A stretch of DNA of 64,000 nt from Chloroflexota bacterium (GTDB taxonomy: Bacteria; Chloroflexota; Dehalococcoidia; Bin125), in NCBI GenBank assembly GCA_003228175.2, contig QGNQ01000001.1:62001-126000 (forward strand), written 5' to 3'. The translations under genes and the position numbers were made by a program. Below the pieces are notes generated by a model that saw nothing but the letters and a program-made list of their open reading frames with translations, did not search any database and had not been told where the DNA came from. Below are positions 2,391-8,559 of the stretch, piece by piece (the stretch's first letter is position 1; every line of letters begins with the position of its first letter).

Positions 2391-3596
2391 ATGACGACCG
2401 GCGCCAACATCGACACCGGCGTGCTGGCCGGCGTCCGCGTCCTCGACTTCGGGCGCTTCATCGCGGGGCCGTTCTGCGCCGCCCTGCTCGCCGACCTGGG
2501 CGCGGACGTGATCCGCATCGAGAAGGTCAGCGGCAGCGAGGATCGCTTCCTGCAGCCCGTCGCGGAGGACCACGCCGGCGCGATGTTCCTGCAATGCAAT
2601 CGCGGCAAGCGCGGTCTCACACTCAACCCCATGAAGCCCGAGGGCCAGGAGATCGTTCGCAAGCTGGTCAAAACCGCCGACGTCGTGATCGCCAATCTCC
2701 CGCCCGACACGATCCTGCGCATGGGCCTGGACTACGAAACCCTGCGCGAGATTCAGCCCCAGATCATCCTCTCCACCGTCTCCGCGCTGGGCACGAAGGG
2801 GCCCTGGGCCAACAAAGTCGGCTTCGACGGGGTCGCGCAAGCGATGTCCGGCAACGCCTTCCTCACCGGCCACGCGGACGAGCCCATGAAGGCCTGGGTG
2901 CCCTACGTGGACTTCGGCACGGCGGCGTTCTCCGCCCTGGGGATCGTCTCAGCGCTGCTGGCGCGAACGCAGGGGCGCGGCGGCCAGCGCGTCGAGGCGT
3001 CGTTGCTGCGCACCGCCCTCACGATTAACAACGCCACCCTGATCGAGCAGCACCTGCTGCATCCGGACCGCGTCGGCAGCGGCAACCGCGGGCAGACCGC
3101 CGGCCCCTCCGATGTCTTCCAGACGCGCGATGGCTGGGTGCTGATCTCCGTCTCCGGGCAGATGCTGTTCGACCGGATTGCGTCGCTGCTGAACGACCCC
3201 GGCCTGCTGGACGACCCTCGCTTCGCCGACGACCTGCTGCGTGGCGAGCACGGCGATGTCCTCAGCGAAATGATGACGCCCTGGTTCGCCCAGCGATCGA
3301 CGGAGGAAGCCCTGGCGGAGTTGGAAGTCGCACGAATCCCGGCCGGGCCCGTCTATTCACCCCAACAGGCCTTGGACGATCCCCACATCCAGGCCAGCGA
3401 GATCCTGGGCGGGATTCAGTACCCCGGCGCCGTCGCTGATGCGCCCATCGCGGGCTCGCCCATGGAGATGTCCGGTACGCCGGCCGCGCCGCAGGGGCGG
3501 TCGCCGCAGTTGGGCGAGCACACGGATGCGATCCTTCAGGACTTGGGTTACGACGCGGACACGATCGCGGCCTTGCATGAGGCCCGCGTCGTCTAG
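2391..3596 (+). CDS. Family III CoA transferase (CaiB/BaiF)
   Basis: Moves CoA between acyl-CoA and a free carboxylic acid in the cytoplasm; the substrate cannot be told from sequence. The 401-residue length is normal for the family. The family opening GVRVLDFGRFIAGPFCAALLADLGADVIRIE is split across residues 14-45, and the likely catalytic Asp is D174 in VPYVDFGTAAF (equivalent to Asp169 of formyl-CoA transferase). SVSGQMLFDRIASLL and ELEVARIPAGPVYSPQQALDDPH are typical of the second domain. It follows the secreted GerMN gene with a 9-base gap, so it may be co-transcribed, although the functions look unrelated. Confidence 0.9.
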   Translation: MTTGANIDTGVLAGVRVLDFGRFIAGPFCAALLADLGADVIRIEKVSGSEDRFLQPVAEDHAGAMFLQCNRGKRGLTLNPMKPEGQEIVRKLVKTADVVIANLPPDTILRMGLDYETLREIQPQIILSTVSALGTKGPWANKVGFDGVAQAMSGNAFLTGHADEPMKAWVPYVDFGTAAFSALGIVSALLARTQGRGGQRVEASLLRTALTINNATLIEQHLLHPDRVGSGNRGQTAGPSDVFQTRDGWVLISVSGQMLFDRIASLLNDPGLLDDPRFADDLLRGEHGDVLSEMMTPWFAQRSTEEALAELEVARIPAGPVYSPQQALDDPHIQASEILGGIQYPGAVADAPIAGSPMEMSGTPAAPQGRSPQLGEHTDAILQDLGYDADTIAALHEARVV

Positions 3597-3667
3597 CGGT
3601 GTGTCGCAAACAGCATCAGACGCGGAACCGCGGCTGACGGGGGGTCGTCCCGTTGTCGTAGCCACGC

Positions 3668-3673
3668 AGGAGG
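3668..3673 (+). promoter_or_regulatory. Strong Shine-Dalgarno (AGGAGG) that argues for a TTG start
   Basis: A perfect AGGAGG lies 5 bases before an in-frame TTG at 3679 but 17 bases before the first ATG at 3691. The spacing favours TTG as the initiation codon of the secreted protein that follows. Confidence 0.6.
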
Positions 3674-3678
3674 TTCCC

Positions 3679-5817
3679 TTGTCTCGACAAATGAAGTCTC
3701 TACGAACGAAGTCTCGACGAACGAAGTCTCGACGAATGAAGGCTCTACGAACGAAGCCCCGCCCAACGCACGATCGATTCACGATCTCCCGCCTCCCCCG
3801 CATCGCCGCATCGCGCTTGCTCGTCGCGACGCTGGCGGCGCTGCTGCTGTCGGTCGCCGCCCTCGCCCTGTCCGACGATCCCGCCGCCGCCGACGCTCCC
3901 ACGCCCGCCGATCAGACGGAGCTGGATTCGAATCGAGCGCTCTGGGACTCGCTGGGCATCCGCGACTATCGCCTGACGACGCGGCAGTCCTGCTTCTGCG
4001 TGTTCACGGAGCCGGTCCGCGTCACGGTCCAGAACGGCGTCGTTACGCAGACCGGCGATGCCTTCGGATTCGGCGACCCACCCCCTGACTTCGCCGTCTT
4101 CACCGTCGACGTTCTATTCGATCGGGTGCAGGAGTTGATCGATCTGCCCGCCGCCGACCTGGTTGTGGAGTACGACCCGGAAAACGGCATCCCGCGCTCC
4201 ATCAGCGTCGATCAGATCGCGCTCGCCGTCGACGATGAGTTCACGATCACCGTTCAGAACTTCCACGCGATCCCAGGCGCTGCCGAACGCGCGGAGCTGG
4301 CCGCGAACCTCGCGCTGTGGGAATCGCTGCGCATTCGCGACTATCGCCTCACGACCTTCCTGGGCTGCTTCTGCTTCGAGCCCGCGCCGGTCACCGTCAC
4401 TGTCCGCGACGGGCAGATCGTGGCGACGGATCCGGTCGACGCGTCCGCCTTCCTGGCGCTGACCGTCGAAAAGCTGTTCGACAAGATCGCCAGAGCCATC
4501 GACGGGCCGGTTGACTCGCTGCGCGTCACCTACGACCCGGACACGGGCATCCCGCTGACCCTCGACATCGACGAAGACTTCGGCATCGCCGATGAGGAAG
4601 AGTTCATCGAGGTGCGCGACTTCACCCCATTGAACGGGGCCGAGGACGCGTTCACGATGCCGTTCGGCTGGAACATCGTGGGTTGGAGCGGCGCAACGCC
4701 AGTCGAAACCGCGACGGAGTCGATCGCCGGCGCATTCGATGCGCTGTTCGGCTGGTCCGCCGCCGCGCAGGCGTTCAAGTCCTACTTCCCCGCGGCGGCG
4801 GGGCCCGCGAACAGCCTGGCCGAACTGGAGCAGGGCCAGGGCTACTGGGTCCGCGTCACGAATCCGGCAGGCGCACTGTGGCAACAACCGCCGCTCACGA
4901 TCGAGTTGGTGGCAGGCCTCAATCTCGTCATGTGGGGTGGCCCCAGCGGCGCCGCCATCGAGGATGTGGTCGGCGATCTGGGACGCGCGCTCCGCTCCCT
5001 GTCCGTGTGGGACGCGCGCGGCCAGCGCTTCCAGAGCTTCGCGCCGAACCGGCCCGCGTTCCTCAACACCGCGCGGACCCTGCTGCACGGCCAGGGCCTC
5101 TGGCTGGACGTCGACCGGGCGCTGACCTGGCGGCAGCCGTCCGCCATCCAAGGCGAGACGTTCGACGTGGCGGAGGGCGAGCCTGTCACGCTCGCCCCGG
5201 GCGACACCGCCGCCCTGACCAACTCGCCGCTGCGCATCCGCTTCGAGCGGGTCAGCTTCGACAACCGCTGCCCGTCCGATGTCGTCTGCATCACCGCCGG
5301 GGAAGTCCGCACGGAGGTCACCGCGACAATCGACGGGCAGCCTCAATCGCTCACGCTGACCGTCCCCGGCGATGGCTCGCAGGTCGAAATCGGCAGATTC
5401 ATTATTGAAGCGGTGGAGATCGCGCCGGGAGCGCTGAGCACCGTTGTGATCGCGCCGCGGGACTACCGGCTCAGCGTTCAGCTGCGCCGCGATGCGTTCC
5501 AGGCGGGGCTCGTCCCCGCCCAGATCGACTCCGTGGAGATCGTCGTGGCGGAGTCGTTCCCGGTGCAGATCTTCGTCCCGATCCAGTCGATCGCGCCCAG
5601 CTCCTGCGAGACCTTCGACCACGTCACCACCACCCGCCAGGGCACGACGATCACCATCGACGTCTGGAACCGGGGCCAGCCCCCCGCGATCCTGGCCCCC
5701 TGCTTAGCGGTGATTACGGAGTCCCAGCACAACGTCGCGTTGGGTAGCGACTTCGTCCCGGGTGTCGAATATCGCGTCCTCGTGGGCGACCAGGAGCGGC
5801 GCTTCACGACGCCCTGA
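3679..5817 (+). CDS. Secreted modular protein: two DUF6174 domains, two 'GWN' modules, C-terminal beta domains
   Basis: About 712 residues from TTG 3679. The first 40 residues are strongly basic and repetitive (SRQMK, SLRTK, SRRTK, SRRMK, ALRTK), followed by a hydrophobic export segment (LLVATLAALLLSVAALAL). Two tandem DUF6174 copies follow, recognised by LWDSLGIRDYRLTTRQSCFC and LWESLRIRDYRLTTFLGCFC, each ending in a YDPxxGIP motif. Next come two copies of the module shared with the 1479 and 27842 genes (GWNIVGWSGATPVE and GLNLVMWGGPSGA). A domain with paired cysteines follows (DNRCPSDVVC), and finally a strand-rich tail with SSCETFDHVTTTRQG and LGSDFVPGVEYRVLVGD. There is no sorting motif or lipobox. 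The function is unknown; it is probably extracellular. A strong terminator follows. Confidence 0.65.
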   Translation: MSRQMKSLRTKSRRTKSRRMKALRTKPRPTHDRFTISRLPRIAASRLLVATLAALLLSVAALALSDDPAAADAPTPADQTELDSNRALWDSLGIRDYRLTTRQSCFCVFTEPVRVTVQNGVVTQTGDAFGFGDPPPDFAVFTVDVLFDRVQELIDLPAADLVVEYDPENGIPRSISVDQIALAVDDEFTITVQNFHAIPGAAERAELAANLALWESLRIRDYRLTTFLGCFCFEPAPVTVTVRDGQIVATDPVDASAFLALTVEKLFDKIARAIDGPVDSLRVTYDPDTGIPLTLDIDEDFGIADEEEFIEVRDFTPLNGAEDAFTMPFGWNIVGWSGATPVETATESIAGAFDALFGWSAAAQAFKSYFPAAAGPANSLAELEQGQGYWVRVTNPAGALWQQPPLTIELVAGLNLVMWGGPSGAAIEDVVGDLGRALRSLSVWDARGQRFQSFAPNRPAFLNTARTLLHGQGLWLDVDRALTWRQPSAIQGETFDVAEGEPVTLAPGDTAALTNSPLRIRFERVSFDNRCPSDVVCITAGEVRTEVTATIDGQPQSLTLTVPGDGSQVEIGRFIIEAVEIAPGALSTVVIAPRDYRLSVQLRRDAFQAGLVPAQIDSVEIVVAESFPVQIFVPIQSIAPSSCETFDHVTTTRQGTTITIDVWNRGQPPAILAPCLAVITESQHNVALGSDFVPGVEYRVLVGDQERRFTTP
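3681..3755 (+). repeat. 15-bp tandem repeat, five copies, inside a coding start
   Basis: Five consecutive 15-base units of the form gtctcgacgaacgaa, differing at a few positions, run from 3681 to 3755. In frame they encode the basic pentapeptides SRQMK, SLRTK, SRRTK, SRRMK and ALRTK at the N-terminus of the secreted protein. Because the unit is a multiple of three, copy-number change would lengthen or shorten the basic n-region without a frameshift. Confidence 0.85.
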
Positions 5818-6902: not shown

Positions 6903-7679
6903 CTAGGCGAGCTCGATCGCGACGCCGCCGATGTCGCGGAACTGCGCCGCGACCCGCGTTGGTCCGCTCACGGTCGTGCGCACGAGGGCGCCAGTGATCA
7001 CGCGCTGGCCCGGCTCCAGGCCCCGTCCGAAGCGGTCGAGCTGCTGCGCCAGACGGCTGAGCGAGAGAAAGTGGTCCTCAACGTGGCCTGCCGCCGCTTG
7101 TCGGCCCACCTCCGCGCCGTCCTGCTCAAGACGCACTTCCAGGGTGTCCAGATCCTGATCGACGGGGACCGGGCTGATCTCGTCCCCCACGACGATCCCC
7201 CAGTTGGTCATGTTGTTGGCGATCTGCAGGGCCGCCGACTTCCCCGTGTAGCGCCCTTTCGCGTTCAGCTCCAGCCCCGCCAGAACAGCCCCACCGGGTG
7301 CGCACACCGCGGCGCGAGCCTCGGCCGGGGTCACGCTGGGTCCGCGCAGCGGCGCGCCCAGGCGCACGCACAGCTCCCCCTCGACGCCGTCCAGCCCACC
7401 GCCCAGCATCGCCGTCGCGCCCGACGCGAAGATCCGGCTGGCCAGCAAGAAGCCGAAGGGCCGGAAGCCCGGCCCCATCCGGTCCAGCGCCGCGCCGGAG
7501 GTCAGGCCCACCTTCCAGCCCCCCAGTTGCTCCCCTTCGCCCTCCAAGCGTTCCAGTAGCTGGAGCTGAAGCGCCAGTCCGTCTTCCAGGCTCAGGTCGC
7601 CCTCGCTGGCCGGCGTGGCGTCGAAATGTCCGCTGTGCCAGCTCGCCAGCAGTCGATCGACGATCGCGCCCTCGTTCAT
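6903..7679 (-). CDS. 2-oxopent-4-enoate hydratase / fumarylacetoacetase-family protein
   Basis: A 258-residue member of the 2-keto-4-pentenoate hydratase group (MhpD/HpcG/XylJ type), which adds water to 2-hydroxydienoates at the end of meta-cleavage routes, or the related oxalocrotonate decarboxylases. Visible features are GGWKVGLTSGAALDRMG near residue 55, the acidic metal-site stretch DGVEGELCVRLGAPL, and the C-terminal LEPGQRVITGALVRTTV. It starts 10 bases after the stop of the upstream GrdB-like gene, so the two form one transcription unit. No ring-cleavage dioxygenase is nearby, so an aromatic-pathway role is not shown here. Confidence 0.8.
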   Translation of the reverse strand: MNEGAIVDRLLASWHSGHFDATPASEGDLSLEDGLALQLQLLERLEGEGEQLGGWKVGLTSGAALDRMGPGFRPFGFLLASRIFASGATAMLGGGLDGVEGELCVRLGAPLRGPSVTPAEARAAVCAPGGAVLAGLELNAKGRYTGKSAALQIANNMTNWGIVVGDEISPVPVDQDLDTLEVRLEQDGAEVGRQAAAGHVEDHFLSLSRLAQQLDRFGRGLEPGQRVITGALVRTTVSGPTRVAAQFRDIGGVAIELA

Positions 7680-7689
7680 GTGCGGGCGC

Positions 7690-8559
7690 TCACGAGCCGG
7701 CGCTGACCGCCGCCGCAGCGGCGCGGGCTTTGTTGTACGCCACGATCGGGCTGGCCTCCAGCGGCTGCCAGTCCCGATAGGCCGTCTTCGTGTCGATCGG
7801 CCACTCGATCGGGACATCCAGGCGGTACTCCGGCCCGGTCGCCTCAGACAGCGCTTGCAGCGCGTGCTCAGCGACGCTGCGCTGCATCGCGGCGTCGTTG
7901 GGCATGCCAAACGCGTGGCCGAACGGGAACTCCACACCAACCACGCGCGGCGCCCGCCACCGCTCCGCGACGGCCGGCATCATCGTCACGATCACGGTTG
8001 GGATTCCGGCCTCTTCAATGAAACGTGCCAGCACGGACACGTTGCTACAGCACGACGGTCAAGCGGGCGCGAGCACCAGCGCATCCACCTCCGCCGCTTT
8101 CATCCGTCGGGTGATCTCCGGCAGCGTCTCCTGCTTCCACGCCGCGCCGTCGTCCGACTGAAAGCCCATCACGCTGTAGTGGTCATCAGCCAGCCGACCG
8201 ATCCGGCCCTCCGACTCCAGCTCCGCGAATCGATCCAGCGGCAGCGCGATGTTGAAGTCCTGGTGATGGTCGCGCGTATTGATGTGCAGGTGTGCGAAGT
8301 CCATCTGCGCCTGTTGCGCGCCCCGCGGGATCACGCGGTAGCCCGGGTCCCCCCACGTCGGGTTGCGACGCTCTCCCTCCAGGTCGAACGACTCCTGAGT
8401 GCCACTCAGATAGACCCCCGCGGTCGTGAGCAGCGCCAGCCTCGCTTCCGGCAGCGGCGTCTGTAGCGGCGTCCAGATGGTGCTGGCGCGCTTCATGGGC
8501 GCGGCTTCGTGGTCCTTGCGCCAGTTGAGCGGGATGTATTTGTAACTGTCGACTGGCAC
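7690..8559 (-). CDS. GrdB/PrdB-like reductase family protein with in-frame UGA (probable selenoprotein)
   Basis: The frame is continuous from GTG 8559 to the stop at 7690 except for one TGA at 8059-8061. Read through, it gives a 289-residue protein of the glycine/sarcosine/betaine/D-proline reductase selenoprotein B family. The sequence around the TGA is DALVLAPA-U-PSCCSNVSVL, followed by ARFIEEAGIPTVIV. GrdB and PrdB carry selenocysteine in the same context (xxLTPxU-x-x-C), and many relatives keep Cys there. Other family marks are GDPGYRVIPRGA, HINTRDHHQDFNIALPLDRF and FPFGHAFGMPNDAAMQ. A SECIS-like hairpin lies just after the UGA. GAGGGG precedes the GTG start. It is coupled to the hydratase at 6903. 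It is an aerobic-type stand-alone relative: no GrdA, GrdC or PrdA is in the window. The alternative is a nonsense mutation, but the position and context favour Sec. Confidence 0.75.
8022..8043 (-). promoter_or_regulatory. bSECIS-like hairpin downstream of the in-frame UGA
   Basis: On the minus strand AACGTG (8043-8038) pairs perfectly with CACGTT (8027-8022) around the loop UCCGUGCUGG. Two more pairs (U-G, C-G) can close it to the apical loop CGUGCU, with a G in its second position, about 24 bases after the UGA. This fits the loose bacterial SECIS pattern, a small stem with G at the start of the apical loop at roughly 16-37 bases. The structure was judged by eye only. Confidence 0.55.

Follow-up and report, generated by a model that had tools for sequence, protein, structure and literature searches.

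A stand-alone PrdB/GrdB-superfamily gene with a predicted selenocysteine codon in a Dehalococcoidia genome

A bacterial gene interrupted by a single TGA may be broken, may belong to a genome with an altered code or may encode a selenoprotein. The window, a 64,000-nucleotide stretch of a Chloroflexota genome, poses this question at 7690–8559, together with a second one: if the UGA is read as selenocysteine (Sec), what kind of protein results? An earlier note on this DNA had proposed a GrdB/PrdB-like selenoprotein that functions with a hydratase-like neighbor. We followed up that proposal computationally. The features concerned are as follows.

7690..8559, minus strand: predicted PrdB/GrdB-like selenoprotein gene; GTG start, 289 residues, Sec at 167, TGA terminal stop
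8059..8061, minus strand: in-frame UGA, predicted Sec codon; UxxC motif (U-P-S-C), UGA at this column in 34/34 site-spanning homologs
8022..8043, minus strand: candidate bSECIS hairpin; 8-bp stem, 6-nt loop CGUGCU
6903..7679, minus strand: hydratase/decarboxylase-superfamily protein (2-oxopentenoate hydratase / 4-oxalocrotonate decarboxylase-like); its ATG lies 10 bases past the stop of the selenoprotein gene

The minus-strand frame from 8559 to 7690 comprises 289 codons with a single internal TGA, codon 167 (8059–8061), between the residues DALVLAPA-U-PSCCSN. Both the otherwise continuous frame and the context quoted in the earlier note (DALVLAPA-U-PSCCS) were reproduced, and ordinary ORF calling does cut the gene in two, as had been anticipated for standard gene callers. 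Codon comparison with the same-genus ortholog gives dN 0.17, dS 0.66 and dN/dS ~0.26 before the UGA, and dN 0.13, dS 0.67 and dN/dS ~0.19 after it; the latter ratio indicates that the downstream half of the gene is coding. The true stop is the TGA at 7690–7692. Since the gene itself terminates with TGA, UGA would act as both stop and Sec codon in one message.

Homologs were collected from a sample of 100 related genomes, the window's own included. The PrdB-like family is present in 42 of these, and only two matches lack an internal TGA, both ending short of the Sec site. Thirty-four homologs that span the site were extracted as sequence, 33 from the same class and one from an alphaproteobacterial MAG. 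All 34 have TGA at the identical column, always in UxxC and in all but two in UPxC, and nearly all are free of additional stops within the aligned stretch. Named homologs outside the class come from a plasmid collection. Five of them have U at the Sec column (UGTCHR), namely PrdB of Peptoclostridium acidaminophilum, Enterococcus gilvus, Terrisporobacter, Ligilactobacillus salivarius and Acetoanaerobium noterae; three, from Roseomonas haemaphysalidis, Haematobacter massiliensis and Paraclostridium bifermentans, have C. The alignment thus places the UGA on the same column as the U of PrdB, the known GrdB/PrdB Sec column named in the earlier note, and displays the U/C alternation for which that note had advised looking.

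A contig-wide genome scan found one relative only, in the alphaproteobacterial MAG. This UGA-bearing homolog (L015 6001–6816, JASLMH010000001.1) is 56% identical and lies in a MAG labeled Alphaproteobacteria, reflecting either inter-phylum transfer or a mis-binned contig.

The window's genome has two more PrdB-like genes, at C3:110081-110710 (L052 6082–6708) and C20:35663-36292 (L053 6067–6708), with one in-frame TGA each. Within the window's bacterial family, genomes have one to five PrdB-like copies. Two or three PrdB-like UGA genes are clustered at L056 (G007:C27 8973–13233), G010:C10, G011:C2, G015:C51 and G016:C59; these clusters are a lineage-specific expansion within the family. A PrdB-like gene of G087 is cut by the end of contig C68 and the start of C159 (L058 and L051, covering query residues 1–158 and 113–280), which is either an intragenic assembly break or two copies.

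The window's genome is a 2.45 Mb draft in 76 contigs, 85% complete. The earlier note had reasoned that it must carry selA, selB, selC and selD, and we found SelA, SelB, SelD and a 5'-truncated tRNA-Sec(UCA).

C2:17295-18362: SelA; profile match of 444.5 bits
C2:98966-99214: SelB; barrel match inside a 711-aa frame
C8:27124-28056: SelD; 358 bits, own in-frame TGA
L011:1-83, start of contig C61: tRNA-Sec (UCA anticodon); 45.6 bits, E 2.9e-8, 5' end lost at the contig start

Neither ARAGORN nor Rfam at gathering level calls the tRNA-Sec of C61, because the contig break cuts its 5' end. The candidates from a first tRNA-Sec scan (48 and 47.6 bits) were discarded; ARAGORN types them as tRNA-Ser and tRNA-Gly. 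The SelD gene is itself a selenoprotein gene, with its TGA, in LATCGG-U-ASKYG, where the active-site residue is expected.

Across the sample, SelA occurs in 38 of the 42 genomes with a PrdB-like gene versus 23 of the 58 without (Fisher p = 1.3e-7, or 0.001 outside the window's family; weak matches with E above 1e-20 are excluded, and p-values overstate the evidence since the genomes are related). SelB is present in all four gene-bearing genomes that lack a full SelA (G034, G037, G047 and G059). The missing SelA probably reflects assembly gaps, and possibly an alternative route of Sec synthesis. One of these genomes, G037, which has SelB and a PrdB-like UGA gene with no full SelA detected, is 95% complete.

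A SECIS-like stem of 6 bp had been noticed 15 bases past the UGA. It is present and lengthens to 8 bp, including one U-G pair, drawn as AACGUGUC-CGUGCU-GGCACGUU; the loop starts 23 nt past the UGA and has a G within its first two positions. A 12-bp alternative is the MFE structure of a short fragment, but its outer pairs are, by inspection, lost in the same-genus sequence, and we therefore prefer the 8-bp hairpin. Compared with synonymous-codon shuffles, the hairpin reaches p = 0.02 here and p = 0.017 in a sister gene, and it ranks 34th among the 267 codon positions of its own gene. The suggested bSECIS check thus yielded a hairpin with a G-bearing loop, of modest significance when taken alone: by itself the hairpin of the window's gene is weak evidence, only modestly better than chance. 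In the eight closest homologs, six of the eight stem pairs form in every sequence; the region is nearly invariant, and 132 of 500 shuffles did as well in the covariation test. In the other branch, that of the paralogs, a hairpin occurs at a constant position 10 nt past the UGA; its stem is 8 bp long and its 3-nt loop starts with G. Pairing is seen in 89% of the cells of that branch and two-sided changes in 25 cells, and the covariation score reaches 0.579, versus 0.184 for shuffled alignments and at most 0.131 in slid controls. Covariation of the hairpins downstream of the UGA in these paralogous genes is strong.

To which family does the protein belong? The readthrough product scores 31 bits with Pfam GRDB (PF07355), above the gathering cut-off of 22, which places it in the GRDB superfamily; with Sec predicted at the family's Sec column, the GrdB/PrdB-superfamily identity given in the earlier note holds. 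The best NCBIfam model is TIGR04483 (PrdB), at 140.9 bits under a cut-off of 300. Curated GrdB/F/H models score 46.7–51.7 bits against cut-offs of 602–800. Like GrdB, GrdF and GrdH of glycine, sarcosine and betaine reductases (PF07355, TIGR01917/01918), the protein has a homologous Sec region, and its Pfam GRDB match covers the C-terminal part; unlike them, it has ~290 residues rather than ~430, no GrdE-type partner and scores under all curated cut-offs. Proteins of Roseomonas and Haematobacter named ‘Glycine/sarcosine/betaine reductase selenoprotein B family protein’ are also stand-alone and PrdB-like, with ~300 residues and no reductase partner among their neighbors, but they are only ~30% identical and have CPxC at the Sec site (Cys for Sec).

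The PrdA/GrdE family (PF09338) was not found in the window's genome, an absence that is not proof at 85% completeness, and it agrees with the earlier claim that the protein works apart from the clostridial amino-acid-reductase subunits. In 19 other genomes of the same bacterial family, PF09338 has no match over the cut-off and one weak match below it (G010). The search detected the family in two PrdB-bearing positive controls. These results make a conventional amino-acid reductase unlikely, and the selenoprotein is probably not one.

The hydratase-like protein encoded at 6903–7679 has no Pfam match. The curated models closest to it, those for 2-oxo-3-hexenedioate decarboxylase, 2-oxohept-4-ene-1,7-dioate hydratase and 2-oxopent-4-enoate hydratase, are matched far under their cut-offs (best score 62.9 of 350 bits); it matches NahK-type decarboxylases with E 5e-10. 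With scores this far under the cut-offs, ‘hydratase/decarboxylase superfamily’ is the limit of naming. The gene is a probable operon partner of the selenoprotein gene in the window's genus only. At six other close homologs examined (G040, G093, G094, G073, G087 and the alphaproteobacterial MAG) the pair is absent, and the selenoprotein gene has no constant neighbor, its surroundings differing from locus to locus. The earlier suggestion that the selenoprotein works with a 2-oxopentenoate-type hydratase was not borne out as a general arrangement: the pair occurs only in the window's genome and one of the same genus. Elsewhere in the window, a long plus-strand frame at 3439–5817 contains two similar repeats (LWDSLGIRDYRLTTRQSCFC / LWESLRIRDYRLTTFLGCFC), and its product is probably secreted.

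How, then, should the internal UGA be read? A lone stop in the frame of a 76-contig draft is what a nonsense mutation, a sequencing error or a pseudogene remnant would leave, but none of these would put TGA at the same column in 34 homologs, and purifying selection past the UGA and the full Sec machinery of the genome also speak against them. The conserved UGA column rules these explanations out, and we give them almost no weight. Reassignment of UGA throughout the genome to an ordinary amino acid, Trp or Gly for instance, would equally have the codon read through in the PrdB-like gene. It is contradicted by the gene's own terminal TGA, and the dedicated Sec machinery, together with homologs that have Cys rather than Trp or Gly at the column, eliminates it to much the same degree. 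We put the probability at about 0.97 that, as judged from sequence, the gene at 7690–8559 encodes a PrdB/GrdB-superfamily selenoprotein in which UGA codon 167 is read as Sec.

The identity of that selenoprotein has rivals of its own. A genuine D-proline reductase subunit PrdB would explain why TIGR04483 is the best NCBIfam match and why Sec occupies the same column; like the clostridial and enterococcal PrdB proteins of that model, the protein has a single domain of ~240 residues (aligned over residues 26–253, 30–34% identity) with Sec in UxxC. However, its 140.9 bits fall far short of the equivalog cut-off, a threshold that true PrdB proteins exceed with 380–401 bits, its motif is UPSCC where PrdB has UGTCHRS, and it has N- and C-terminal extensions. 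There are also no prd neighbors, and no PrdA-family partner gene was found in the genome, nor any above the cut-off in the 19 family relatives. On score, motif and the absence of the PrdA family and prd neighbors we reject this identification as very improbable. A further proposal, compatible with a Sec-decoding PrdB relative and adding a function to it, is that the selenoprotein and the hydratase-like enzyme catalyze a pair of linked catabolic steps, for instance by reducing a substituted 2-oxo or enoic acid that is then hydrated or decarboxylated. Only 10 bases separate stop from start, and G001, the same-genus genome, has the two genes in the same order (~76% and 68% identity). Yet the pair is not found beside the six other close homologs, and the order is uninformative because the two congeneric genomes are too close, with the next neighbors, a CoA-transferase and bactofilin, also kept in G001. 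We consider this pairing of steps rather unlikely.

For the favored reading, a Sec-containing stand-alone relative of PrdB, we propose the following. The tRNA-Sec(UCA), SelB and the bSECIS hairpin just downstream would decode UGA 167 as Sec, and the UGA at the end of the gene would still work as a stop. The protein would act alone, as no pyruvoyl subunit of the PrdA/GrdE type was found in the genome. By analogy, the Sec167 selenolate would attack an electrophilic atom of the substrate, Cys170 of the UxxC motif would resolve the adduct to a selenenylsulfide, and a thioredoxin-type reductant would regenerate the selenoprotein. We give this chemistry roughly even odds; the most economical mechanism that we infer from GrdB/PrdB chemistry has Sec167 as the nucleophile and Cys170 as the resolving thiol. 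It would make the selenoprotein a small-molecule or thiol reductase. D-proline is an unlikely substrate because no PrdA was found. The AlphaFold model of the selenoprotein has a pLDDT of 93.5, and a Foldseek search with it gave no significant match in PDB or BFVD, so the fold is uninformative on function; no solved structure is related to the selenoprotein by sequence.

PrdB-like UxxC selenoproteins have been on record since 2005, and the window's gene is unsurprising as a selenoprotein. In the Sargasso Sea survey they ranked third among the families by abundance, with 42 sequences (PMC1088965), and PrdB was among the commonest selenoproteins of the GOS survey, with 235 Sec and 110 Cys forms (pfam07355, UxxC; PMC2398784). 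UxxC proteins are summarized in PMC13188914. The marine ‘proline reductase PrdB’ as described in both surveys resembles the window's protein in its pfam07355 match, its UxxC motif and the occurrence of Sec with Cys variants (PMC1088965, PMC2398784), and by that description the two very probably belong to the same broad family. The surveys deal with metagenome sequences, apparently without an analysis of partner subunits (PMC1088965, PMC2398784). To account for monofluoroacetate cleavage in Synergistota, a GrdB-like Sec protein whose substrate is altered has been put forward (PMC10838667), a case that suggests, by analogy, that the GrdB-like scaffold can be redirected. Tentatively, the stand-alone PrdB-like selenoproteins of the UPxC/UPxCC type, a large branch with 1–5 copies per genome in this lineage, may catalyze a reduction whose substrate is not an amino acid, relying on Sec with no pyruvoyl partner and, in the window's genus, coupled to a 2-oxo-acid hydratase/decarboxylase; this seems possible to us, if somewhat doubtful.

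The present analysis contributes genome context: a partner subunit was not found, genomes of the family have between one and five copies, and the gene lacks constant neighbors. The label ‘proline reductase’ would mislead for this PrdB-like gene. The locus provides a worked case in which Sec is present in every fetched class homolog spanning the site, the reductase partner is missing and copies have multiplied in one bacterial family. With it, what one of the commonest marine selenoprotein families does becomes a concrete, testable question.
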